From: a virus
DNA length: 38,455 bases
Strand: one strand, 5' to 3'
IMG/VR virus record: IMGVR_UViG_3300037882_002206
Span: 1-38,455 of that record
This document shows positions 26,538 through 38,442 of the stretch, one piece after another; the stretch's first letter is position 1, and every line of letters starts with the position of its first letter. The position numbers and the translations under genes are program-made. Under the pieces are notes generated by a model, which had not been told where the DNA came from, did no database searches, and saw only the letters and a program-made list of their open reading frames with translations.

Positions 26538-28598
26538 TTATCGTCTTCTGATATTATTCAAATTTATAATAGCTTCAGCAGCCTCACGGAAATTATCTGG
26601 GCCAACATACATACCCTTAGCACCCTTCTGTACGTTGCGATCTATCGCAGGATCATCCCAGCGGTAAACGGCACCGCCGATAAAATCAGTGGCTTCACCC
26701 TTATTTTCTTCATACATTAGTTTTCTTGCGACACCATTACTTAATAGCAGAGAAGAATAGCGGTCTTTTCTGAGACGACCTTTTTTATTATCAGCAGTCT
26801 TAATTTCTGGAGTATCCCAGCGTAATCTACCAGAAGGTAATTCTGTAACAACAATAGTAGCTAATTCATCTTTCAAGTCTTCAATTTCTTGCATACAACT
26901 TTCTAAGCTTTCAGCAAAACGAGTATTCTTTTCTTTATTTCTATTATCAAAATCCATAGCTAAAGCAATACCAGCATTGTCGTAACGAGGGAATAATAAA
27001 TTCTTTTGTTCTAAGTCGTGTTTCAATCCTTCGTTTGCTTCTAATACCCAATTTTGTTTAGCAAACTGAATCAAGTGAATAATATGGAGTCCAGCCATAT
27101 TGTCAGTGGGGCGAGGATTATCAATATCGTGGATGGGTAAGATTGGTAATTCGCCTGGCATGAAATTACTCTCTAAAGCCTCTTGGACGCCCACGCTTCC
27201 TTGGGCGTCAAGAGCAATCGCCACGGTAGGAAATGCCTTCATTAATTCACGAATTTTTCTAGCACAATGCCCATAAAAATCTGAGGCTAGAGCTTCTTGT
27301 TGAGCTTTTTGACGCCTGAATTCTGAGCGTTTTGTGGTCCAACAGTAAACAAGACGCCTATGATCTTTATGTAGTTCTAAAACGGTAATAGCAAAGTTAT
27401 CCACTTCAGAAGCGGGGTCCACACCGATTACATACCTGCCCCCTGGATCGCCCGACAAACAAGATTCAAATTTAACGGAACCAGAAGGTTTTTCGATTGG
27501 TTTACTAGTAACACAACTTTCAATAAGTTTGCGGCTAAAATATCCTTGTGTATCACTACCCCAAACAACACCATACTCCATTAAGAAATTGGTTCTAGAC
27601 ATAGTGGCTTGCGATGAAGCCAACATATCCGCATCCATAAAACCATCTGGTACTAGGTCATATGGAATACGAATAATGCAATAGTTATTTGAATTGGTTT
27701 TGTCTGGTTGACCGTTTTCGCCCAATACACGCTCAAGAGTACTAACATCATTACGAGCGGAAATAATATTGTGGTGTAGCTTCCAATACTTATAAAAATG
27801 GTTGAAAGTCCAATAGGCGGTACCAGCTAACACAACTTGATTTGCCCGCACAATTTCATCCCTATTTCCAGTTGGTAAACCCATACCTTGGAGATACTTC
27901 ATAGAAGCCACACGCTTAACGTTTTGGATGGGCGAGGCTGTAACTGAAGCGAAACCACGAAGAACAGTTTCATAGATTTCGGGGTTAATTGTGGCAAATT
28001 CGTCTAGAATAAGATTGGTGGCACGAAAACCTCTAATACGTCCACCATCACCGATAGGAATACCAGTAATGGTACTAGCACCAATTCTAAATAACCATTT
28101 ATCTGGTTCATGAATTAGCCGTTGACGCTTATCTAAGTGAGCCCCACATAAGTCTCTTAATACTGGGGCGTTATTCCAAATATTCTCAATAATTTCCATA
28201 ACGTTCTTTGACTGACGGAAACCAGCACCAGCAATGATTACTTTGGAGCCTGGCTTAAAAACAGCCACTAGCATAGAGTAAAGAGCTAGTGTAAAAGATT
28301 TACCGAAACCACGAGCAGCAATATACATGGGGTTAGAGTGTGTCCACAGCATTTTTAGAATCATTAGCTGTTCGGGCAACAACTCAATATTAAATACGTG
28401 CTTACAAGTAAAACCAAAATTCTCTGGTTTTCTCATAATACGTAAATAATAAAGGGCTGGGTTATCTCGGCCTTCCCAGCCCAAATGCTGTAACTCATGA
28501 TGTTCGATATTAATTTTATCAGTGTCACCAAGACCCAACCACTGATCTTGTGCTTTACGCAGCAACTCCTGAAATTCGTTATTTTGGGTTTTTGGCAT
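26538..28598 (-). CDS. terL: Terminase large subunit (686 aa)
   Basis: This is the ATP-driven DNA-packaging motor and headful or site-specific nuclease. Residues 95-101 (ARGFGKS) are the Walker A motif, 197-202 (LILDEF) Walker B, and VIGVDPASEVDNFAITVLE (391-409, D395) the first acidic motif of the RNase-H-like nuclease. Further nuclease carboxylates are probably those in IALDAQGS and ALAMDFDN. The length of 686 is somewhat long for a large terminase, as in some large phages. It overlaps the upstream ERCC4-type nuclease gene by 20 nt and ends before the portal promoter. The motif set makes this call secure. Confidence 0.97.
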   Translation of the reverse strand: MPKTQNNEFQELLRKAQDQWLGLGDTDKINIEHHELQHLGWEGRDNPALYYLRIMRKPENFGFTCKHVFNIELLPEQLMILKMLWTHSNPMYIAARGFGKSFTLALYSMLVAVFKPGSKVIIAGAGFRQSKNVMEIIENIWNNAPVLRDLCGAHLDKRQRLIHEPDKWLFRIGASTITGIPIGDGGRIRGFRATNLILDEFATINPEIYETVLRGFASVTASPIQNVKRVASMKYLQGMGLPTGNRDEIVRANQVVLAGTAYWTFNHFYKYWKLHHNIISARNDVSTLERVLGENGQPDKTNSNNYCIIRIPYDLVPDGFMDADMLASSQATMSRTNFLMEYGVVWGSDTQGYFSRKLIESCVTSKPIEKPSGSVKFESCLSGDPGGRYVIGVDPASEVDNFAITVLELHKDHRRLVYCWTTKRSEFRRQKAQQEALASDFYGHCARKIRELMKAFPTVAIALDAQGSVGVQEALESNFMPGELPILPIHDIDNPRPTDNMAGLHIIHLIQFAKQNWVLEANEGLKHDLEQKNLLFPRYDNAGIALAMDFDNRNKEKNTRFAESLESCMQEIEDLKDELATIVVTELPSGRLRWDTPEIKTADNKKGRLRKDRYSSLLLSNGVARKLMYEENKGEATDFIGGAVYRWDDPAIDRNVQKGAKGMYVGPDNFREAAEAIINLNNIRRR

Positions 28599-29079
28599 TA
28601 GCTATTCGTTTAAATAGTGCGTTTACAAATTCCCATGCTCCCTGTTTATCATCACAGAACATGAAATAAACATTGTGTTCATCAATAATCTGGTGAATCC
28701 TCTTTAGAATATATCGCCCATTCATCTTAATTTTCTTCTTAATCTTTTCGGGCAAATCTACATTGTGAGGAAAATCTAAAACATCAGATATACTAAACTC
28801 ACAGATAATATAAGGTACAGCAAAAACTTGCATACGCTCTAATTCACGTACAAACCTTTTCTCGCTAAGATTAGTAGCAAATTCAGCTACCGTTCTCTTC
28901 CGCTCAACACAAACTATGTCTTCATACCCCAACATAGTATAGTCGCCCGTTTTTAAGGAAGTCTTTAGTGTACCACCACAATAACCACATTCTTCCCAAT
29001 ACCAGGCCCCAACCTTTTCTTTGTTATCACGGAGCACAGTAAATTTCTTCATCTCAGTTTTCTTATCATCATCTATCAT
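28579..29079 (-). CDS. ERCC4-type (XPF-like) nuclease (166 aa)
   Basis: Residues 17-82 contain the complete pattern of the ERCC4 nuclease domain: VLRD (D18), LKTGDYTM (GDY 45-47), VCVERKR (the ERK catalytic triplet at 59-61) and FATNLSEKRFVRELERM. A CxxC pair (CGYC, 31-34) lies between the first two motifs. ERCC4-family enzymes cut branched or flapped DNA next to a junction. The gene overlaps HNH by 4 nt (ATGA) upstream and terminase by 20 nt downstream, so it may clear branches from replicated DNA during packaging. The family is clear from motifs; the packaging role is inferred from position. Confidence 0.88.
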   Translation of the reverse strand: MIDDDKKTEMKKFTVLRDNKEKVGAWYWEECGYCGGTLKTSLKTGDYTMLGYEDIVCVERKRTVAEFATNLSEKRFVRELERMQVFAVPYIICEFSISDVLDFPHNVDLPEKIKKKIKMNGRYILKRIHQIIDEHNVYFMFCDDKQGAWEFVNALFKRIANAKNPK

Positions 29080-29432
29080 CTATCTCTCCCAGCCAGTAAA
29101 CGATAAAACATAAATTCATATTGCTCCTCAAATCCTAATGTCATTTTGTGGTGTCTATGACACAGAGTAATTCCATTACTAACTAAGAACCTACGTTCTG
29201 GATATTTGGCCCACATTTTAATATGATGAGCTTCGATAGCATCCTTAGAATCACAAACACAACATTTAAATTCATCCCGCTCATATACGGCTTTTCGCCA
29301 TTCGATATAACGCGGGTCTTCAAAGTTTCTACGTTTTTTAGTTTTTGGGCGGGAACGCTTGTTAAACTGATTAGCGTATTTTCTACGACCCCCTTTTCTC
29401 TTGGCGGGCGCTTTTTTGCCACGTCTAGGCAT
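29076..29432 (-). CDS. HNH endonuclease of the packaging module (118 aa)
   Basis: The first 40 residues are strongly basic (GKKAPAKRKGGRRKYANQFN). The HNH core follows: CCVC (57-60), AHH (68-70), N86 and LCHRHHKM (90-97), giving a zinc-structured HNH site. Small HNH proteins encoded next to the terminase genes are established partners of terminase in packaging (HK97 gp74 type). This suits the present location two genes upstream of the large terminase. It differs from the two homing-type HNH genes in the window, lacks an AP2 region, and is joined to both neighbours by 1-4 nt overlaps. Confidence 0.9.
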   Translation of the reverse strand: MPRRGKKAPAKRKGGRRKYANQFNKRSRPKTKKRRNFEDPRYIEWRKAVYERDEFKCCVCDSKDAIEAHHIKMWAKYPERRFLVSNGITLCHRHHKMTLGFEEQYEFMFYRLLAGRDR

Positions 29433-30547
29433 TAAGCGTGATCCCAGAAAGTAAATCTACTCTTAAATATTCCGTCTCCAATAAATTTTGGAGTTTCAAG
29501 ACCGATCATAGGTAAAGTATCAATAAACCCATTGTAAACACCATGAATCCCTATTTTTAAATCTTTCCATCCAGGGCAATCTCTATCAACCATATGTTTA
29601 ACAAGTCCCTTAAAATCTAGAGTTGGTTTCCAACCTAAAATAGAACGGGCTTTACCACTATTACCTAGGAGCATATGAACTTCTGCTGGGCGGAAAAGAT
29701 CAGGATCAATTTCTACATAATCTTTATGATTAACCCCGAATAAACCAAAAGCCTCTTTAAGAAACTCTTCTACACTATGAGTTTTACCACTAGCAAGAAT
29801 ATAATCGTCGGGCGAAACTTGTTGAAACATAAGTCTCATACCGTCTACAATGTCACCAGCATATGACCAATCTCTATAAGCAGATAAATTTCCAAGTTTT
29901 AGTTTTTGGAGCGGGGCTTCTTTGAGTATAATTTCGTTAATATTATTTCTGATATACTTGGTAATTTTTCGTGTAACAAAGTTCTCACCACGTCTCTCGG
30001 ACTCATGATTAAATGCAATACAATTGCAACAAAATAGGCCATATGAACGATAAAGCTGGACAGCATAGTAACCAGCACATTTAGCAATAGCATAAGGAGA
30101 TTGTGGATTGAAAGGAGTATGTTCAGATATAAAACCATCAGGTCCAGCATTATTTCCGAACATCTCAGACGATGCAGCGAACACAACCTTTGTGGTGGGA
30201 GACGATTGTTTAACTGCTTCGAGGACATTCAAGACCCCCTTACCAGTAATATCCCAGGTAGAAAGTGGAGTCTTAAAAGATTCGCCCACATGACTTTGGG
30301 CGGCAAGTAAATATAACTCGTCTGGAAGAGTAGTAGAAATCACTTCCTGCATACTAGCAAAATCAGTAATGTCACCAGATACAAGATGGAAGTTGGGCGA
30401 TTTTAGAGCTTCTTTAATATTTTTATCACTGGGCGTGCTAGTACGCCGTGCAACCCCGTAAACCTCGTACTTATCCGCCAACAATTTGTCCGCCAGGATA
30501 GAACCATCTTGACCAGTAACACCAAGTATTAGAGCTTTATTCCCCAT
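29432..30547 (-). CDS. gmd: GDP-mannose 4,6-dehydratase (371 aa)
   Basis: The enzyme turns GDP-D-mannose into GDP-4-keto-6-deoxy-D-mannose, the precursor of GDP-fucose, rhamnose and related sugars. Residues 9-16 (GVTGQDGS) form the Rossmann NADP-binding loop; ASSEMFGN (125-132) with S126 and E128, and YAIAK (152-156), form the catalytic Ser/Thr-Glu-Tyr-Lys set of short-chain dehydratases; NHES (180-183), RRGENFVTRKI and YRDWSYAGD are hallmarks of Gmd. Full length and intact. It begins behind AAGGA, overlapping the small-terminase candidate by 11 nt. Gmd genes are known in some T4-like cyanophages. Possible uses are changing the host surface glycan or decorating the virion. Confidence 0.95.
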   Translation of the reverse strand: MGNKALILGVTGQDGSILADKLLADKYEVYGVARRTSTPSDKNIKEALKSPNFHLVSGDITDFASMQEVISTTLPDELYLLAAQSHVGESFKTPLSTWDITGKGVLNVLEAVKQSSPTTKVVFAASSEMFGNNAGPDGFISEHTPFNPQSPYAIAKCAGYYAVQLYRSYGLFCCNCIAFNHESERRGENFVTRKITKYIRNNINEIILKEAPLQKLKLGNLSAYRDWSYAGDIVDGMRLMFQQVSPDDYILASGKTHSVEEFLKEAFGLFGVNHKDYVEIDPDLFRPAEVHMLLGNSGKARSILGWKPTLDFKGLVKHMVDRDCPGWKDLKIGIHGVYNGFIDTLPMIGLETPKFIGDGIFKSRFTFWDHA

Positions 30548-32097: not shown

Positions 32098-32388
32098 ATG
32101 AAAAATAAGAACCGAAAAGAAAAATATTGTCACACTTGGACTTTGGCAGAAGACAAGTTTATTTTGGAAAATCAGCATTGGACTGATAAGGAAATCGCAC
32201 ATACGTTGAGTAAATTAAGTGGGCGAAAAATCACTAAAGACGCCCTACGTATGAGACGTGTAAGGCTTGGTATCAAAAAAAGTGAGAAACCTGGCAGGGG
32301 TACCTCTAAGGTTATTAGCGTTAAGATAAACTACGGATTACTTGGAAAGAAAAGATATCGCTATAATATATTCCCGACACAGTATTAA
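32098..32388 (+). CDS. Myb/SANT-like helix-turn-helix DNA-binding protein (96 aa)
   Basis: Residues 14-60 have the layout of a Myb/SANT-type domain: HTWTLAEDKFILENQHWTDK, EIAHTLSKLSGRKITKDALR, MRRVRLGIKK. Conserved positions are the tryptophans at 14 and 27 and the terminal RxxRLGI motif, as in many phage and bacterial HTH proteins. The N-terminus is lysine/arginine-rich. It is on the plus strand, divergent from the sigma block, and its 3' end overlaps the minus-strand Ig-like gene by 68 nt, tail to tail. The ribosome site is poor (A-rich leader). A regulator acting on the divergent region is a reasonable guess. Confidence 0.8.
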   Translation: MKNKNRKEKYCHTWTLAEDKFILENQHWTDKEIAHTLSKLSGRKITKDALRMRRVRLGIKKSEKPGRGTSKVISVKINYGLLGKKRYRYNIFPTQY

Positions 32389-32641
32389 TTTTTGCTTGTA
32401 GTCGATATAATCCGCCCTCAGACAAATCCCCATTGACCGTGGTATATTTTATGGCACCATCTGTTCCATCGGTATTGATTGCTCCGCTCACAACGCTCAA
32501 AGTACCACTAGGGTATCGTAAAAAGACCGTTGGGAAAGTCGCCCCATTAATGTTCATCGGGGTGGAATTATTTGGAAAACCAGCGTTGTTGAGTTTAAAA
32601 GTACAACGTAAATTCGCCCCAATTTCATTTACATAAAACAT
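32321..32641 (-). CDS. Ig-like (BppU-type?) virion domain protein (106 aa)
   Basis: The 106-residue protein is a single beta domain: MFYVNEIGANLRCTFKLNNA, FLRYPSGTLSVVSG, GTDGAIKYTTVNGDLSEGGL and a closing strand FSFQVI. It aligns over its full length with the first ~100 residues of the poly-serine protein next to it (RPPAGTSSG..., GADGLISYSV, GIYTYQGYA, RFFQVLY). Such Ig-like domains are used as N-terminal anchors in phage tail or baseplate proteins. It overlaps the previous stop by one base, so both are made from one transcript. Tail attachment is inferred. Confidence 0.75.
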   Translation of the reverse strand: MFYVNEIGANLRCTFKLNNAGFPNNSTPMNINGATFPTVFLRYPSGTLSVVSGAINTDGTDGAIKYTTVNGDLSEGGLYRLQAKINTVSGIYYSDIFSFQVIRSLS

Positions 32642-34569
32642 TAATAGCTCCTTACAGCAGTCACCATACCAGAAGCGGGAGACACATAAATTGTTCCACT
32701 CTCAAAAGTTCGGCTCATCCAGTTGCATAACCCGTCCGTTCCGCTAGAATGAACCGTGTACTCCCCAAGAGGCTCACCAAATTGCATGGGCCAGTACCAC
32801 CAACAATCAATACTATTATGATTACCAGTGCCAGCTAAACTATCGTCTGGAGCGGGCGGATAAGAAACGAACATAGGATCACCCATACGTCGATACATCA
32901 TTACCATACCAGCCATAAATCTGGTTGAGGATTGTGTATCCATAGTAGTTCCTTGGTTAGTAACAGCAATTGTGCCAGTGATAGCACCAGCAGACTTAAT
33001 ATCTGCTAGGTCTTCAAATCGGTAATACAACTTAACTTTGTCTCCTGTAGCTGGACTAGTTTCCTCAGCGGTCCAACCAAAGTTTTCCAAGTAAGAATAA
33101 GCTGTTGGCAAATTATCCAACGTAATCCTATCCTTAATTGATCCTCCATGTGGGAACATATGGTGGTCGCCAGAAGTAGTAACTAGTAATCTAGTACCAG
33201 CATCAGCCTCTTGCATATCCAAAATATAACGAATATTAGAGTCAATTGAAGTGCCGAATGATATCCCAATCATACCCACTCCACTATCAGCAAACATGCG
33301 AACATTTTCTCTAATAGACCTTAGGTTATCTACGTGTCTTACTGATTTACCAGCACCATCATCTCCCTGATTTACCCAACCTTCTAAAGCCACAAAGTTG
33401 GTCATTTGAGGAACTTCATTAAAACCATTAAGATCAAAGAAAAATGGGCGAATTAGAGCGGTACCACCAAAATTGAATCCGACTAGAATGCCACTTCTAT
33501 TAAGATCGGCTTTTACCTTTTTGAACCTAGCTTTGTTGCCCTCCCAATAAGTTATGTCATAACCAACTTCATCCCAAAACTGCATATTATTTACATAGTG
33601 ACCAGACGCCCCCAAGCCATAAGGAATCATGCGGGACAGCCAGAGGCCCGAGCAGGCAAGCTCGTTAAGCAGGATAGAAGAGGTCGAGTTGGGAGAGGTT
33701 GACGTAGGCAGGGGCGCTCCCGTACAATCAGGGGAATATTCGTTTTCCAAGTCGCCGTCCGTTGGATAAAAACCAACAGTATTTAGCATAATACCCGATT
33801 GTTTTAGAGAGAAATTACCAATAAACGAACTCCATACCGCCGTAGGATAAGCAGCAAGATAAACGTCTCTTAATTGTCTATATCTATCCCTAGCATGTAT
33901 TTTACCCATAGCCAACTCTTCGGCACTAGCCATACCCTCATAAATATTTCCACTAGCCCCACAAATAGGACGTTCAGCATTAAACTTAAGCTGGATACGA
34001 GTACCGATATTAATTAGCATATCCATAGCTTTACTGCTATACTCTGGATAAGTAGTAGTATCTAGATAAGCGTGAGAGCTATTTACTGAGCCACGCATAT
34101 TAAGGTCAGAATTAGGTAATTCAATAGTTGGAATACTACTGCTAGCACTAGAACTGGAACTGCTAGACGAACTAGAACTTGAACTGGAGCTAGAGCTAGA
34201 AGACGAACTTGAACTAGAGCTACTGGAACTACTTGAGCTAGAACTAGAGCTTGAGCTAGAAGACGAACTAGAACTTGGGTTAATATCGAGCCCGTACAAA
34301 ACCTGAAAAAATCTTTGGGCCGAATATACAACTCCAAACCCGCCCGAAGCATAACCCTGATATGTATAAATACCAGCATAATTTATATCACTCGGAGCAA
34401 CAGAATAAGAGATTAATCCGTCTGCACCAGTATTAACAAACGAAGCTACACGCACCCCTGAACTTGTTCCAGCGGGTGGCCTAATCATCATATATTTTGC
34501 TGACGCAGAAGAAACATCGGCCAGTAAATTGGCTACAATTCTAACGCCACTACTATTTACATAAATCAC
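32641..34569 (-). CDS. Tail-associated protein: Ig-like domain, 43-serine linker, large C-terminal domain (642 aa)
   Basis: Start is GTG 34569 behind AGGG. Residues 1-98 are an Ig-like domain homologous to the adjacent 106-aa protein. Residues 99-145 are a spacer of 43 uninterrupted serines, one alanine and three serines. Residues ~150-642 form a globular domain with a pattern like a TIM-barrel sugar hydrolase: FWDEVGYDITYWEGNKARFK, LNRSGILVGFNFGGTAL, NFVALEGWVNQGDDG, MFADSGVGMIGISFGTS. Acidic residues at strand ends (E in LEGW, D in FADS) could be catalytic, but no family was fixed. It probably is a tail-bound enzyme or adhesin acting on host surface material. Confidence 0.75.
   Translation of the reverse strand: MIYVNSSGVRIVANLLADVSSASAKYMMIRPPAGTSSGVRVASFVNTGADGLISYSVAPSDINYAGIYTYQGYASGGFGVVYSAQRFFQVLYGLDINPSSSSSSSSSSSSSSSSSSSSSSSSSSSSSSSSSSSSSSSSSSSASSSIPTIELPNSDLNMRGSVNSSHAYLDTTTYPEYSSKAMDMLINIGTRIQLKFNAERPICGASGNIYEGMASAEELAMGKIHARDRYRQLRDVYLAAYPTAVWSSFIGNFSLKQSGIMLNTVGFYPTDGDLENEYSPDCTGAPLPTSTSPNSTSSILLNELACSGLWLSRMIPYGLGASGHYVNNMQFWDEVGYDITYWEGNKARFKKVKADLNRSGILVGFNFGGTALIRPFFFDLNGFNEVPQMTNFVALEGWVNQGDDGAGKSVRHVDNLRSIRENVRMFADSGVGMIGISFGTSIDSNIRYILDMQEADAGTRLLVTTSGDHHMFPHGGSIKDRITLDNLPTAYSYLENFGWTAEETSPATGDKVKLYYRFEDLADIKSAGAITGTIAVTNQGTTMDTQSSTRFMAGMVMMYRRMGDPMFVSYPPAPDDSLAGTGNHNSIDCWWYWPMQFGEPLGEYTVHSSGTDGLCNWMSRTFESGTIYVSPASGMVTAVRSY
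34135..34275 (-). repeat. Poly-serine tract with mixed codons
   Basis: Forty-three serine codons run without interruption (34147-34275), followed by one alanine and three more serines. AGT, AGC, TCT, TCA, TCG and TCC are mixed, with recurring CTAGTT / CTAGCT hexamers on the minus strand. The variety of codons argues for selection of a flexible linker rather than simple triplet slippage. Confidence 0.95.
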
Positions 34570-34621: not shown

Positions 34622-34642
34622 GCCTTAGGAGGCGTAGCCGTG
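34621..34642 (+). promoter_or_regulatory. Leader hairpin over the ribosome site of the small-gene array
   Basis: CGCCTTAGGAGGCG (34621-34634) can fold with CGCCT pairing to AGGCG and places the AGGAGG ribosome site in stem and loop just before GTG 34640. TAGCCGTG (34635-34642) is repeated inverted at 34569-34576 over the start codon of the divergent poly-serine gene. This suggests control of translation or a shared binding site, not proven. Confidence 0.45.
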
Positions 34643-34876
34643 CAAATAAGAAAGTTAAGCGAGTATTTTATTGGCCCAGCTAGATTTAGTTCTAAAAAAA
34701 TACTAGAATACACATTGCCACGAGACATACAAATAGTATTAATTATAGATGTAAATTTGGAAAAACACCACGTTACTTTTCGAGGAGAAGTATTTTCTAT
34801 GTTGGACGGCAAACGAATTTTTAAAAGCTCACAAATACTAAAAGAGGGAGTGGTGGTATACTATGGACACTATTAA
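34640..34876 (+). CDS. Small paralogous array protein 1 (78 aa)
   Basis: First gene of a plus-strand run of about ten small related genes. It starts with GTG behind AGGAGG. MQIRKLSEYF matches the family's opening MKIxKLSQL; YTLPRDIQIVLIID is the central LPxxxxxLIxD strand; EGVVVYYGHY is the hydrophobic closing strand. A basic middle (TFRGEVFSMLDGKRIFKSS) connects them. Function is unknown; no signal peptide or membrane segment is present. It is followed after 15 nt by the second member. Confidence 0.75.
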   Translation: MQIRKLSEYFIGPARFSSKKILEYTLPRDIQIVLIIDVNLEKHHVTFRGEVFSMLDGKRIFKSSQILKEGVVVYYGHY

Positions 34877-34891
34877 TGGAAAACAAAAATA

Positions 34892-35167
34892 ATGAAGATA
34901 ATCCGCGTCCATAAACTTCGCCCATTGGAACAACGTATTTACCCCTTATTGGAAAAATTTACCCTGATATCAAACATTCATATGAACACACTGATTATGT
35001 ATCGTAGTGGAACTGTATTTTTTTACCAAAACAAGGATAAAGAAATCATCAGATACGATGAGAATCAGGGAGAAAATCTTGAGTGCCATAAATGGTTATT
35101 AGTAGATAGTGGACCAGATTGGTTGGATGGCAGATCGTGCCTACTCTTCGAGGGTGCTGAAAAGTGA
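34892..35167 (+). CDS. Small paralogous array protein 2, divergent (91 aa)
   Basis: The start MKIIRVHKLRPLEQRI keeps the N-terminal strand of the family. The centre reads ISNIHMNTLIMYRSGTVFFY, a changed form of the core strand. The C-terminus (LDGRSCLLFEGAEK) retains a short hydrophobic strand but not VVVxP. It is the longest and one of the most divergent members. Its stop TGA overlaps the GTG of the next gene (GTGA), so the two are coupled. Function unknown. Confidence 0.7.
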   Translation: MKIIRVHKLRPLEQRIYPLLEKFTLISNIHMNTLIMYRSGTVFFYQNKDKEIIRYDENQGENLECHKWLLVDSGPDWLDGRSCLLFEGAEK

Positions 35168-35406
35168 AAATATTTCTGCTGTCGCAGTTAACAAATGATG
35201 AAAATGAGATAGGTATCATGCTTAGACATAATTTTTTATACGGAGATCAGACTTTAATTACTTTTAGGGGCGAGAAAAGTTTCCTCATAAAAATGGACAC
35301 AGAGGTTGACTCCATGCGGTTTTTGGGTACACTGCTTAATATGGACGGCTCGCCCTACTTCCACGCCCCACCGTATCCGCCCATGATTGTGAGAGTGGGA
35401 CCATAA
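35164..35406 (+). CDS. Small paralogous array protein 3 (80 aa)
   Basis: GTG start overlapping the stop of the second gene by 4 nt. MKIFLLSQLTND is a near-perfect copy of the family opening. The centre (YGDQTLITFRGEKSFLIKMD) keeps a strand rich in L, I and F, and PPMIVRVGP closes like VVVxP. A stretch of proline and aromatic residues (SPYFHAPPYPP) precedes the last strand. The next gene follows after 2 nt. Function unknown. Confidence 0.75.
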   Translation: MKIFLLSQLTNDENEIGIMLRHNFLYGDQTLITFRGEKSFLIKMDTEVDSMRFLGTLLNMDGSPYFHAPPYPPMIVRVGP

Positions 35407-35408
35407 AA

Positions 35409-35636
35409 GTGAAAATAATTAAGCAGTCTGAACTAGAATGTAAACGCAACCCGATGTTAAATATTAGGTTATGCACAACAAGAAATATTAAAGAATCTTT
35501 TGTGTTAATACTAGATACTAATGACCCCATCAATCACACACCGTTTCACAAACCTATAGACCCTAATGGTGAATTAAAGTATAACTTCTTATTTCAAAAA
35601 ACTCCTTTCATAGTAATGTTATATTTAGGCGAATGA
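35409..35636 (+). CDS. Small paralogous array protein 4 (75 aa)
   Basis: GTG start 2 nt after the previous stop. MKIIKQSELECK shows the family opening with Q-S-E-L in place of L-S-Q-L. RNIKESFVLILDTND is the core strand ending in D. FIVMLYLGE is the closing strand. Its stop TGA is overlapped by the next ATG (ATGA). Function unknown. Confidence 0.75.
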   Translation: MKIIKQSELECKRNPMLNIRLCTTRNIKESFVLILDTNDPINHTPFHKPIDPNGELKYNFLFQKTPFIVMLYLGE

Positions 35637-35863
35637 ATATAATAAAAGCTTCCGAACTAGAGACAATTAGTCGACGTGGGCAAATGGTTCATAAGAGGCT
35701 CATACGAGAAAACCTTTTTTTAATCAATGACGTTGGAATAAACTTGAGACTACATCCTTATATTGGTTTCGGTACTAGGAGATGTACTTACATAACAGTG
35801 TTTGGTAATAAAATTATAACGGCTTATCATCATCAACCTTACCTGGTTGTTGTGTGGGATTAG
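35633..35863 (+). CDS. Small paralogous array protein 5 (76 aa)
   Basis: ATGA overlap with gene 4. MNIIKASELETI is the opening strand, LIRENLFLINDVG the core and YLVVVWD the closing strand. The middle is basic and aromatic (RGQMVHKRL; GFGTRRCTYITVFGNK). The open frame of the next member could start upstream with GTG inside this gene's end, but I prefer its internal ATG. Function unknown. Confidence 0.75.
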   Translation: MNIIKASELETISRRGQMVHKRLIRENLFLINDVGINLRLHPYIGFGTRRCTYITVFGNKIITAYHHQPYLVVVWD

Positions 35864-35910
35864 ATGCACATAATCCACTTCAAAAACTTGCCCTAGGAAT
35901 CCTTAGCCTT

Positions 35911-36135
35911 ATGGACATATACAAACTATCTCAATTTCCTATGCGTGATATAAACGTCTTTGGGACAATTTTTAGGAATTTGCCCAAGGAAACATTTATT
36001 CTAATTAGAGATAATGAAGACGCTATTTACAATAGATCAATATTCTACTTCTATGAACTTAAAAGTGGTGATAGAATTACTGGTCTACCTGTTAAAGATG
36101 AAGTTTGTGTGGTAGTCCCATATGCGAATAGTTAA
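35911..36135 (+). CDS. Small paralogous array protein 6 (74 aa)
   Basis: I chose ATG 35911 because MDIYKLSQFPMRD then aligns with the family opening; the longer frame from GTG 35854 would add 19 unrelated residues. FRNLPKETFILIRDNED is one of the clearest copies of the LPxETxxLIxD core, and VCVVVPYANS ends with VVVP. The end overlaps the next ATG by 14 nt. Function unknown. Confidence 0.75.
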   Translation: MDIYKLSQFPMRDINVFGTIFRNLPKETFILIRDNEDAIYNRSIFYFYELKSGDRITGLPVKDEVCVVVPYANS

Positions 36136-36340
36136 ATTATCACAATTAGATGAGGTCAGGATTAACGGCATTCGTAGTTATGTTAGGCTTGATAATATCG
36201 AAACGCCGTGTATAGTAATAATGGATGATAGTACAGTTGCTCAAATTTGTGTAGGTACTGTTAACCTTTTTACTATGAGAGGTCATCGTCTTAAAAGACA
36301 AAGAACGTTTAAGGAATGGGCAATAGTGGTAGTACCATAA
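36122..36340 (+). CDS. Small paralogous array protein 7 (72 aa)
   Basis: MRIVKLSQLDEV is a canonical opening. LDNIETPCIVIMDDS is the core strand with terminal aspartate, and EWAIVVVP is the cleanest VVVxP ending of the array. It is the shortest complete member. The gene overlaps the previous one by 14 nt and is followed after 10 nt by the next. Function unknown. Confidence 0.8.
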   Translation: MRIVKLSQLDEVRINGIRSYVRLDNIETPCIVIMDDSTVAQICVGTVNLFTMRGHRLKRQRTFKEWAIVVVP

Positions 36341-36350
36341 TGATCGTAAA

Positions 36351-36602
36351 ATGAAAATATATAAACTCAGTCAACTTCCCAAAGCTAAATTTTTTGATAT
36401 ATTTGGTGGGCCAGTTCCGTTCATTCAATATACTTTACCAGAGGGAACTTATCTTCTGATTATAGACCATCCGCTAGACAAAGGCCCCAAAAAAATACCT
36501 GATGGTGCGACAGCAATACTTACCCCTTACGGAAAAAAAATAAAAAATTACCAAGTCTTCTATTGTGATTTTGTGATAATAATAGGGTTTGTAAATTTCT
36601 AA
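36351..36602 (+). CDS. Small paralogous array protein 8 (83 aa)
   Basis: MKIYKLSQLPKAKFF is the consensus opening itself. YTLPEGTYLLIIDHPLD is the consensus core and is close to YTLPRDIQIVLIID of the first gene. The closing strand is FVIIIGFVNF. A GGP segment and a lysine-rich loop (PYGKKIKNYQ) lie between. ATG lies 10 nt after the previous stop. Function unknown. Confidence 0.8.
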   Translation: MKIYKLSQLPKAKFFDIFGGPVPFIQYTLPEGTYLLIIDHPLDKGPKKIPDGATAILTPYGKKIKNYQVFYCDFVIIIGFVNF

Positions 36603-36653
36603 GAATAATGTCAGGGTACACCTGTTTCGTAATTAACGTATGAGGAGGGCCAC

Positions 36654-36884
36654 ATGGAAATAATTACCATAAAAAATAAAACAACTTACACTATGGACCC
36701 AAATAAATACTATCTTTTAATTAACCTCGGTGGGTTGTGGATAGATTCTTCTCATACTTATCCCGCAGAGCCACAAACATGGCTACCAATATTTCCTTCT
36801 CAATACAACATAAAAGCATCATTTCCAAAAATGCCAGCAGTTGTAGTTAAGGGATATGAGAAAATGTCTTTTTATGGTGGGTAG
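36654..36884 (+). CDS. Small paralogous array protein 9, divergent (76 aa)
   Basis: A 51-nt gap and a strong ribosome site (GAGGAGGG) precede ATG 36654, so this gene may be the start of a second translation unit. MEIITIKNKTTY keeps the opening strand pattern, MDPNKYYLLINLGG the core, and AVVVKGYEK the closing VVV strand. The middle is rich in P, S and W. Related to the array but diverged. Function unknown. Confidence 0.7.
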   Translation: MEIITIKNKTTYTMDPNKYYLLINLGGLWIDSSHTYPAEPQTWLPIFPSQYNIKASFPKMPAVVVKGYEKMSFYGG

Positions 36885-37038
36885 GAATTCCTCTTATAGA
36901 ATCCTGCCCGATGAAAATTGTCTAATAGATGTAGACGTAGAACTTGGTCGAATAACTTGGCCCCTAAACAGGTATGGGAATGGATATCAACTTAAAATAA
37001 TTTTAGAAGATAAAATGTTAGTACTAATATGGGCGTGA
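36874..37038 (+). CDS. Small paralogous array protein 10, shortened (54 aa)
   Basis: The likely start is ATG 36874 (MVGRNSSYRILPDENC), overlapping the previous gene by 11 nt; ATG 36856 is the alternative. ILPDENCLIDVDV fits the family core, and MLVLIWA fits the closing strand, but the opening MKIxKLSQL is missing. It may be a truncated or decaying member of the array. GTAGGAATTC in its start recurs at 37062 and 38036. Confidence 0.55.
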   Translation: MVGRNSSYRILPDENCLIDVDVELGRITWPLNRYGNGYQLKIILEDKMLVLIWA

Positions 37039-37111
37039 ACTACCAAGCGTAAGCGTAAATAGTAGGAATTCCAAAGGCTTTTGGGCAAATGTGAGGTCCA
37101 CTTTTTTCGGT

Positions 37112-37963
37112 TTACGTAAAACATGGTTTCAGAATTTTATGTATTTGGTAGTGTCCCAGATTATATTTCTCCATCAAACCATAAATTGTTTGGGCGACAG
37201 ATAACTCACTCTGAGCAAACTCTTGTCTAATTTTCTCGCCCAACATTTCCTTTTGTTCCTTTCTGTCCTCTACAGAAAGTTTTTTAAGTTCTGTCTTTGT
37301 AATTCTGGACTTTGATAGTCCATAAGTTAATTCTCTACAATATTTATATGATATCTTATATTCTTTACATAGTTCTTTCTTAGGTACTCCCTTTAAAAAT
37401 TTCTGTTTTAATTCATCTACTTTTACTGGTTTCAGTTCTATCCTTGTTCTTCTACTTCTATCTTTAGAAACTCGCCCAGTATAATTATTATCCTTCCAGC
37501 TTTTATTATTTACTATAACTCTAATTTGGGCATCGGTAACATCATACTCTATACTCAAACTCTTAGACGACTCTCCATTATGATATCTGTCGCGTATATT
37601 AGTAGCATCATTAAAACTTAATTTTCCCACACTATTCCGCTTTAAAGCATCCTGCATATTATCCCGCTCTGTTCCTTCGTAGAGATGGTCTGGATTAACA
37701 CACGCTGGGCGATCAATGCGACTTCCCGTTGAACGTTCAACGCAACAATGATTCAGTTGTAAGTCTAGATTGCATCCGCCATACCGAAGATGGAACGCTA
37801 CGCGGTGTGCGGCTAGTTGTCTATTTTGGTATTTGAAATATCCGTATCCTCCGTGGTATTTTCTTCCTGTCCACATTATGCAACCATTGGCGTCGGGTGG
37901 AGCACAGAAGGAATAGAATTTGTCGATAATTTTTTGCGGTAGTTCTGGGATTTGTTTGGCCAT
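37112..37963 (-). CDS. Free-standing HNH endonuclease with helical C-terminus (283 aa)
   Basis: I chose ATG 37963 (MAKQIPELPQKII) because AAGGA lies 8 nt upstream and because it leaves the GGTGTATAAC element outside the gene; ATG 38002 overlaps that element's end. Residues 20-102 form the HNH core: CIMWTG..GGYG, AHRVAF (H53), NHCC (H72), CVNPDHL (C88, H93) and GTERDN. Residues 114-156 (KLSFNDATNIRDRYHNGESS...VNNKSW) align with KLTFKDANDIRLKY... of the HNH at 7434. The rest is helical and basic with a second HTH-like region (KKELCKEYKISYKYCRELT) rather than AP2 repeats. Probably a mobile homing-type gene. Confidence 0.88.
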   Translation of the reverse strand: MAKQIPELPQKIIDKFYSFCAPPDANGCIMWTGRKYHGGYGYFKYQNRQLAAHRVAFHLRYGGCNLDLQLNHCCVERSTGSRIDRPACVNPDHLYEGTERDNMQDALKRNSVGKLSFNDATNIRDRYHNGESSKSLSIEYDVTDAQIRVIVNNKSWKDNNYTGRVSKDRSRRTRIELKPVKVDELKQKFLKGVPKKELCKEYKISYKYCRELTYGLSKSRITKTELKKLSVEDRKEQKEMLGEKIRQEFAQSELSVAQTIYGLMEKYNLGHYQIHKILKPCFT

Positions 37964-37996
37964 AAGAACGTTCCTTGAACGGGAGTGAAAGTTAGA

Positions 37997-38016
37997 GGTC
38001 ATATATGTTATACACC
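37997..38016 (-). promoter_or_regulatory. Putative late promoter of the right-hand HNH gene
   Basis: Minus strand GGTGTATAACATATATGACC; first G 53 nt before ATG 37963, as at the tail-tube (54) and poly-serine (52) genes. One mismatch to TATAAT. Homing genes with late promoters are common in T4-like phages. Confidence 0.5.
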
Positions 38017-38217
38017 GTATTAAGCGAAAAGAGAAGTAGGAATTCTAGAGAATTTTTTGTAGAATGGGCTACGTTATTTTTTGGTGGGTACGCTCCGTGG
38101 TATTTGTGCAGGCCCCCCGCCCCCTGGACATATGTACAGTACCCCCCTCCAGGTCATAAAAAGCCCCTCACCACAATTATTGTGATAACAACTATTAGCT
38201 ATCTAATTATTTTCTAG
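38005..38217 (+). CDS. Possible small membrane protein (70 aa)
   Basis: An AGAGG site 6 nt before ATG 38005 supports a start. The product has a basic N-terminus (SEKRSRNSREFF), a proline/aromatic middle (APWYLCRPPAPWTYVQYPPP) and a hydrophobic C-terminus (TTIIVITTISYLIIF) that could be one membrane segment. The middle is encoded by unusually C-rich DNA for this genome. No family was recognised. It may be a real small early gene or a chance frame; if it is not a gene, 38017-38270 holds nothing else that I can name. Confidence 0.35.
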   Translation: MLYTVLSEKRSRNSREFFVEWATLFFGGYAPWYLCRPPAPWTYVQYPPPGHKKPLTTIIVITTISYLIIF

Positions 38218-38270
38218 AGAATATCTGTTGAGAGGATGTTCGTTGCAACAAGTATCTAATACTGAACATA

Positions 38271-38347
38271 TGTACAGGTAAACATATGTACACTAATGAA
38301 CGTTTGTACAGTAAGTGTACGTGTGTATAGTAGTGTACAAGTGTACA
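38271..38347. repeat. Cluster of TGTACA palindromes
   Basis: TGTACA occurs at 38271, 38287, 38305, 38334 and 38342, with near copies TGTACG at 38316 and TGTATA at 38324. A further isolated copy lies at 38133 after CATA. Spacings are 8-18 bp. Such a run of identical palindromes in a non-coding stretch next to a terminator looks like an operator cluster or a replication-initiator binding site. No coding frame here is convincing. Confidence 0.6.
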
Positions 38348-38407
38348 GTAGTGGGCTCGGTCGAGCTGGATATGTCGATATGTCGGAACAATACAATATG
38401 TCAAGCC

Positions 38408-38442
38408 AAAAAAAAGCCCTACGCTAGCGAACTAGCGTAGGG
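38408..38442 (-). terminator. Rho-independent terminator for transcription entering from the right
   Basis: On the minus strand an 11-bp perfect stem (CCCTACGCTAG with CTAGCGTAGGG) closes a TTCG loop and is followed by C and eight T (38408-38415). It separates an unseen unit to the right from this window. On the plus strand the hairpin has no T-run, so the orientation is clear. Confidence 0.92.

Follow-up and report, generated by a model that had tools for sequence, protein, structure and literature searches.

Ten diverged small genes, at least seven of one orphan family, in the divergent small-gene region of an uncultivated tailed phage

An array of ten small plus-strand genes (34640-37038) in an uncultured virus of bacteria, from a clade of tailed phages, contains an orphan protein family without earlier description. 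The array lies in the expected place, a divergent block of small genes, and judged from its sequences it may represent an expansion of one family of up to tenfold. Seven of the genes share a common ancestry. There is about an even chance that the ten-gene set consists of early proteins, each of which disables or redirects a different host protein. An earlier note on this DNA had proposed an undescribed system. This was too strong, and what stands is a protein family not described before, located where related viruses also duplicate unrelated small genes.

The stretch analysed, here called the window, is the whole 38,455-base virus record. Since terminal repeats were not found in it, the record is probably a fragment. 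Virion and packaging genes on the minus strand fill positions 3-34569, nearly the whole window. Recognised among them were a beta-helix protein, the portal, the large terminase, an ERCC4 nuclease and a nucleotide-sugar epimerase, along with weak matches to a major head protein and to sigma-70 region 2, and a cement-protein match slightly below the Pfam cut-off. The array points away from this operon (Table 1). The 642-aa protein encoded at the start of the operon carries a Ser-rich linker, and neither it nor the neighbouring 106-aa protein has a homologue at the loci of the relatives. The ERCC4 nuclease, a small HNH protein and the GDP-mannose dehydratase-like epimerase adjoin the terminase (28579-30547) and are kept in many relatives (35-76 loci; homologues in L027-L106). 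Past the HNH homing-type gene, a 70-aa plus-strand ORF (38005-38217, MLYTVLSEKRS...) codes by score and is unlike the array family. Seven clustered, iteron-like TGTAC-centred half-sites (ATATGTACA, GTGTACA and similar) near the right end (38125-38350) are possibly operators or an origin. A strong terminator-like hairpin on the minus strand at the right edge (38417-38442; 11 pairs, 7 of them G-C) suggests a minus-strand unit coming in from past the end of the record.

Table 1. Array genes (G1-G10) and flanking genes of the window. Rank, leave-one-out rank; z, whole-length shuffle score.
Feature	Position	Strand	Length	Remarks
106-aa and 642-aa proteins	32321..34569	-	106 and 642 aa	First genes of the divergent operon; context, outside the array family
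G1	34640-34876	+	78 aa	GTG start after AGGAGG; MQIRKLSEY...LPRDIQIVLIID...VVVYYGHY; z 5.4
G2	34892-35167	+	91 aa	MKIIRVHKL start; membership in doubt past the N-terminus
G3	35164-35406	+	80 aa	MKIFLLSQL; GTGA overlap with G2; z 5.5
G4	35409-35636	+	75 aa	MKIIKQSEL; rank 1, E 7.5e-5; z 7.7
G5	35633-35863	+	76 aa	MNIIKASEL; ATGA overlap with G4; rank 1; z 6.0
G6	35911-36135	+	74 aa	MDIYKLSQF; rank 2; z 6.9; AlphaFold2 pLDDT 71
G7	36122-36340	+	72 aa	MRIVKLSQL; 14-nt overlap with G6; rank 1; z 6.4
G8	36351-36602	+	83 aa	MKIYKLSQL; rank 1; z 7.3; AlphaFold2 pLDDT 67
G9	36654-36884	+	76 aa	Own AGGAGG site; TTYTMDPNKYYLLIN...PAVVV; plausible member; z 2.9
G10	36874-37038	+	54 aa (60 aa if ATG 36856)	Plausible member
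HNH homing-type endonuclease	37112-38002	-		Downstream boundary of the array; context, outside the family

With a codon model derived from the virion genes, each of the ten ORFs scored higher in its own frame than in any other. The ORF coordinates bore out gene lengths of 54-91 codons, and the GTGA and ATGA overlaps reported earlier were present at G2/G3 (35164) and G4/G5 (35633). G9 and G10 overlap by 11 nt. AGGAGG sites were strong at G1 and G9, and most of the other genes overlap or are closely spaced. No repeated promoter-like element was found before the array genes, and direct repeats within the array were short. Three copies of the sequence GTAGGAATTC lie at the array end or beyond it (36881-36892, 37061-37072 and 38035-38046), perhaps as a repeated ribosome-binding or regulatory element. 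The ten proteins have a soluble composition, and their pI values are spread from 5.0 to 9.9.

Common descent had been claimed for all ten genes. Profiles built from nine members were searched for the tenth against a background of about 6,800 ORFs; G4, G5, G7 and G8 ranked first, G1 and G6 second and G3 twelfth, and G2, G9 and G10 were not recovered. Over the whole length, G1 and G3-G8 beat 300 of 300 shuffles (z 5.4-7.7), with lower scores for G2 (2.9), G9 (2.9) and G10 (1.3). When the N-terminus was removed, six of these seven still beat 300 of 300 shuffles and G7 beat 299 (z 2.7-4.6), so the family signal does not come from the N-terminus alone. Without it, G10 rose to 3.2 and G2 fell to 0.8. 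By these profile and shuffle comparisons, G1 and G3-G8 are clearly one family, G9 and G10 are plausible members with a weak fit to the core pattern, and the membership of G2 is doubtful past its first nine residues. The ten could instead be several short beta-rich early proteins with convergent starts, as might be read from the three members that the profiles missed and from a best pairwise phmmer E-value of only about 5e-4 between members (ten-sequence set). The shuffle results for the seven, with and without the N-terminus, make this very improbable.

A start resembling MKIxKLSQL was confirmed in eight genes. The central LPxExxxLIxD described with it held in part, as the LIxD strand occurs in most genes and the preceding LP only in G1, G6, G8 and G10. 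The VVVxP ends attributed to many members were overstated; VVVP is found only in G6 and G7, and others end in VVV-like strands. G10 lacks the N-terminal motif and keeps ILPDENCLIDVD and MLVLIW. Among pairs encoding the same amino acid within the shared first nine codons, 43% had identical codons, where the codon usage of the phage predicts 41%. The motif serine is encoded by six codons across seven genes (AGC, TCG, TCT, TCC, TCT, TCA and AGT in G1, G3, G4, G5, G6, G7 and G8, respectively). Codon identity at chance level indicates that synonymous sites are saturated, that the duplications are old and that the motif has been held as protein. Judged from its codons, the motif is thus kept by selection on the protein and not as a DNA signal. 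A regulatory-DNA cause for the shared start was ruled out, since the motif codons differ at random.

AlphaFold2 models from paralogue alignments had a pTM of 0.53 for G8 and 0.59 for G6 (pLDDT in Table 1). Both place strands at about residues 2-5, 11-14, 20-27 and 29-37, with another at the C-terminus; the first strand is followed by a short turn. The similar, mostly-beta strand order is predicted with moderate confidence, and the agreement is partly dependent because most alignment rows are shared; the PDB matches of the two models differ. Fold searches of PDB with both models and of BFVD with the G8 model gave nothing significant (best VIA Z 3.8 and 3.2). RCK-domain, thiamin-pyrophosphokinase and SepF-like matches were rejected as low-score ties. 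Of the proposal that one fold had been duplicated, there remain one duplicated and diverged family, firm for seven of the ten genes, and the similar predicted strand order of G6 and G8; the inclusion of G2 does not.

The family matched nothing in Pfam, PHROGs, NCBIfam, PADLOC or PDB sequences at accepted thresholds, with only sub-threshold chance matches, and the statement that it matches no known family was borne out in every library searched with profiles or sequences. IMG/VR was also scanned with a degenerate DNA motif for MKIxKLSQ(L); of the 22 matches, none started a comparable small gene. Two scans of IMG/VR directed at the family, one with G6/G7/G8 and one with G4/G5, gave 32 pattern matches each, and none was confirmed. 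Searches with tblastn of phages (G8, G6 and G4) and of plasmids (G8) found weak matches only; a NinX-labelled plasmid match and an Erwinia phage match were rejected, as both were antisense to annotated genes. A profile search of 67 whole records of related viruses found no array. The weight of this negative is limited: leave-one-out recovery by the profile reaches only about half of the known members, many of the records are fragments, and an empty result shows little when it lacks a positive control. The single match there (record G019) spans a stop codon outside any array and was rejected. Even so, if relatives carried an array with several copies of like divergence, at least one match would be expected. 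No description of such an array was found in the literature.

Sequence places the window in a large clade of uncultivated tailed phages. For its terminase, IMG/VR contains hundreds of relatives, with identities of about 44-49% for the best; queried as a single sequence, the terminase gave no match. Four terminase relatives in genome collections lie in MAGs of four different bacterial groups, which does not fix the host. Genes shared between the window and these relatives are those for head, portal and epimerase, the sigma-like gene and their neighbours. The array was not among them, nor were the 642-aa gene and the HNH homing-type genes. In the region upstream of the sigma-like gene and terminase, opposite-strand genes dominate in 38 of the 46 relatives with enough upstream sequence, and their median length is usually 60-90 aa (about 75 aa). 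Small paralogous proteins were found in this region at at least 14 of the 46 loci, mostly in 2-4 copies and from families unrelated to that of the window; the count was made by reading the cluster list, includes a few near-identical loci and leaves out clusters resembling repeated non-coding DNA. Such a frequency indicates, as far as sequence comparison can tell, that duplication of small genes here is a habit of the clade, and that the window, with a family of its own, takes this habit to an extreme. The paralogues of L064, L094, L112 and L162 resemble the array in size, in position and orientation to the terminase and in being multiplied, mostly to 2-4 copies, but their sequences are unrelated. 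When the profile of the window family was compared with 74 clusters from the relatives' regions, the probability was at most 0.8%.

Several copies per virus of Cys-rich small proteins (SDCCNVES...CSxCGEHCEIV) were seen on the opposite strand upstream of the sigma-like gene in L064, L112 and L054. Another duplicated family in the relatives' region has the pattern KFGTVQV...NGKxYAGxIVKV. In L094, L121, L087, L092 and L055, short ORFs were repeated in several frames (LPKWQ..CQNG, FDVNPYxxxTY, PPLGG). These look like non-coding repeats lying between small genes and may be early promoters.

The genomic context is the best clue to function. Host takeover had been suggested earlier for the array, and its position fits early host-takeover genes, the same place in relatives being a divergent small-gene block; on this ground we read it as part of an early host-takeover or counter-defence region. 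We propose that the array forms the near end of an early host-interaction region. Tandem duplication of a single ancestral protein, small, soluble and mostly beta, would have produced at least seven copies and perhaps ten, organised as one or possibly two transcription units with translational coupling. All copies would keep the same frame, in which the N-terminal MKIxKLSQL strand and its turn are followed by a central strand that ends in Asp (LIxD), a turn at Gly and, at the C-terminus, a hydrophobic strand, while their loops and surfaces diverged. Each copy, made early, would bind a different host protein of defence or housekeeping, or a different variant of a single one, and inhibit or redirect it. 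In this way the array may act as a broad-spectrum binder set. We infer this timing, the binding and inhibition, and the targets. More tentatively, the family may be a small all-beta phage scaffold, not described before, used as a tandem repertoire of host-protein binders, in which duplication of one fold and diversification of its surface yielded inhibitors each aimed at a different host or defence protein. An Aca-like HTH regulator was not recognised among the ten proteins (no Pfam or PHROGs match), and the nearby HTH-like match lies in the HNH endonuclease on the other strand. Some anti-CRISPR operons have no Aca, so a missing Aca is a weak negative. Proteins with a purely internal role could give the same pattern.

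An alternative is that the copies co-assemble, or all dock on one host or phage machine, with the conserved N-terminal strand as the interface and the variable parts adding specificities. Translational coupling of the genes would suit co-assembly, and the first nine residues are indeed the best conserved and held at the protein level. However, the motif forms the first core strand and turn in both models, which accounts for its conservation without an interface; it is absent from G10, and only its start is kept in G9. We therefore consider co-assembly or a common partner unlikely.

Two further explanations are, in our view, improbable to a similar degree. The proteins could be packaged and injected as a set, with the shared N-terminus as a capsid-targeting tag. 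The internal proteins IPI-III of T4 are diverse, small and anti-restriction, and their conserved part is an N-terminal targeting sequence only; One of them, the 76-residue T4 IPI*, has helices flanking its two beta sheets and acts as an inhibitor of a restriction enzyme (PMC3012670). The array is like them in combining a conserved N-terminus with diverged, small, beta-rich bodies. Its bodies are related too, however, as the shuffle scores without the N-terminus indicate, and its genes run against the virion operon. A regular cleavage site is lacking, since by inspection an [L/I]xE site falls within the first 20 residues only in G1 (LSE) and G7 (LDE), and no prohead protease was recognised with Pfam and PHROGs among the virion genes tested in this fragmentary record. 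The other explanation is drift, in which the genes would be chance duplicates, largely dispensable and under weak or no selection. It would suit both the relatives' duplication of various unrelated small genes at the same place and the three members that hardly resemble the rest. Against it, all ten frames are intact with real-gene codon usage although synonymous sites of the motif are saturated, and over such divergence stops would have arisen in copies free of selection.

Should the copies be separate inhibitors that share a scaffold, as in the host-directed reading that we prefer, they would amount to a natural library of small proteins that bind bacterial targets, and would show directly how duplication can broaden the counter-defence of phages. 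This is a large, uncultured clade, and the different duplicated families in its divergent small-gene region make that region a practical hunting ground for new anti-defence genes. Even with an ordinary function, the family was found in none of the collections searched.

Duplication of viral genes that counter defence is known from other systems. T4 amplifies tifA under defence pressure (PMC9391042). Homologues of AcrID1 are duplicated in close proximity within single archaeal rudiviruses (SIRV1-3), and functional diversification has been proposed for them (PMC11065993). Like the array genes in the proposed reading, these encode small early proteins of one family, with several diverged copies close together in one genome, but their viruses are archaeal, and family searches give no sequence link between the two. 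The host takeover module of SPO1 comprises 26 genes (PMC6873191). Both it and the array are small-gene blocks kept separate from the genes of the virion, from whose operon the array diverges, and the SPO1 block is directed at the host. The takeover genes of SPO1 are mostly unrelated to each other, whereas in the window one family fills most of the block.
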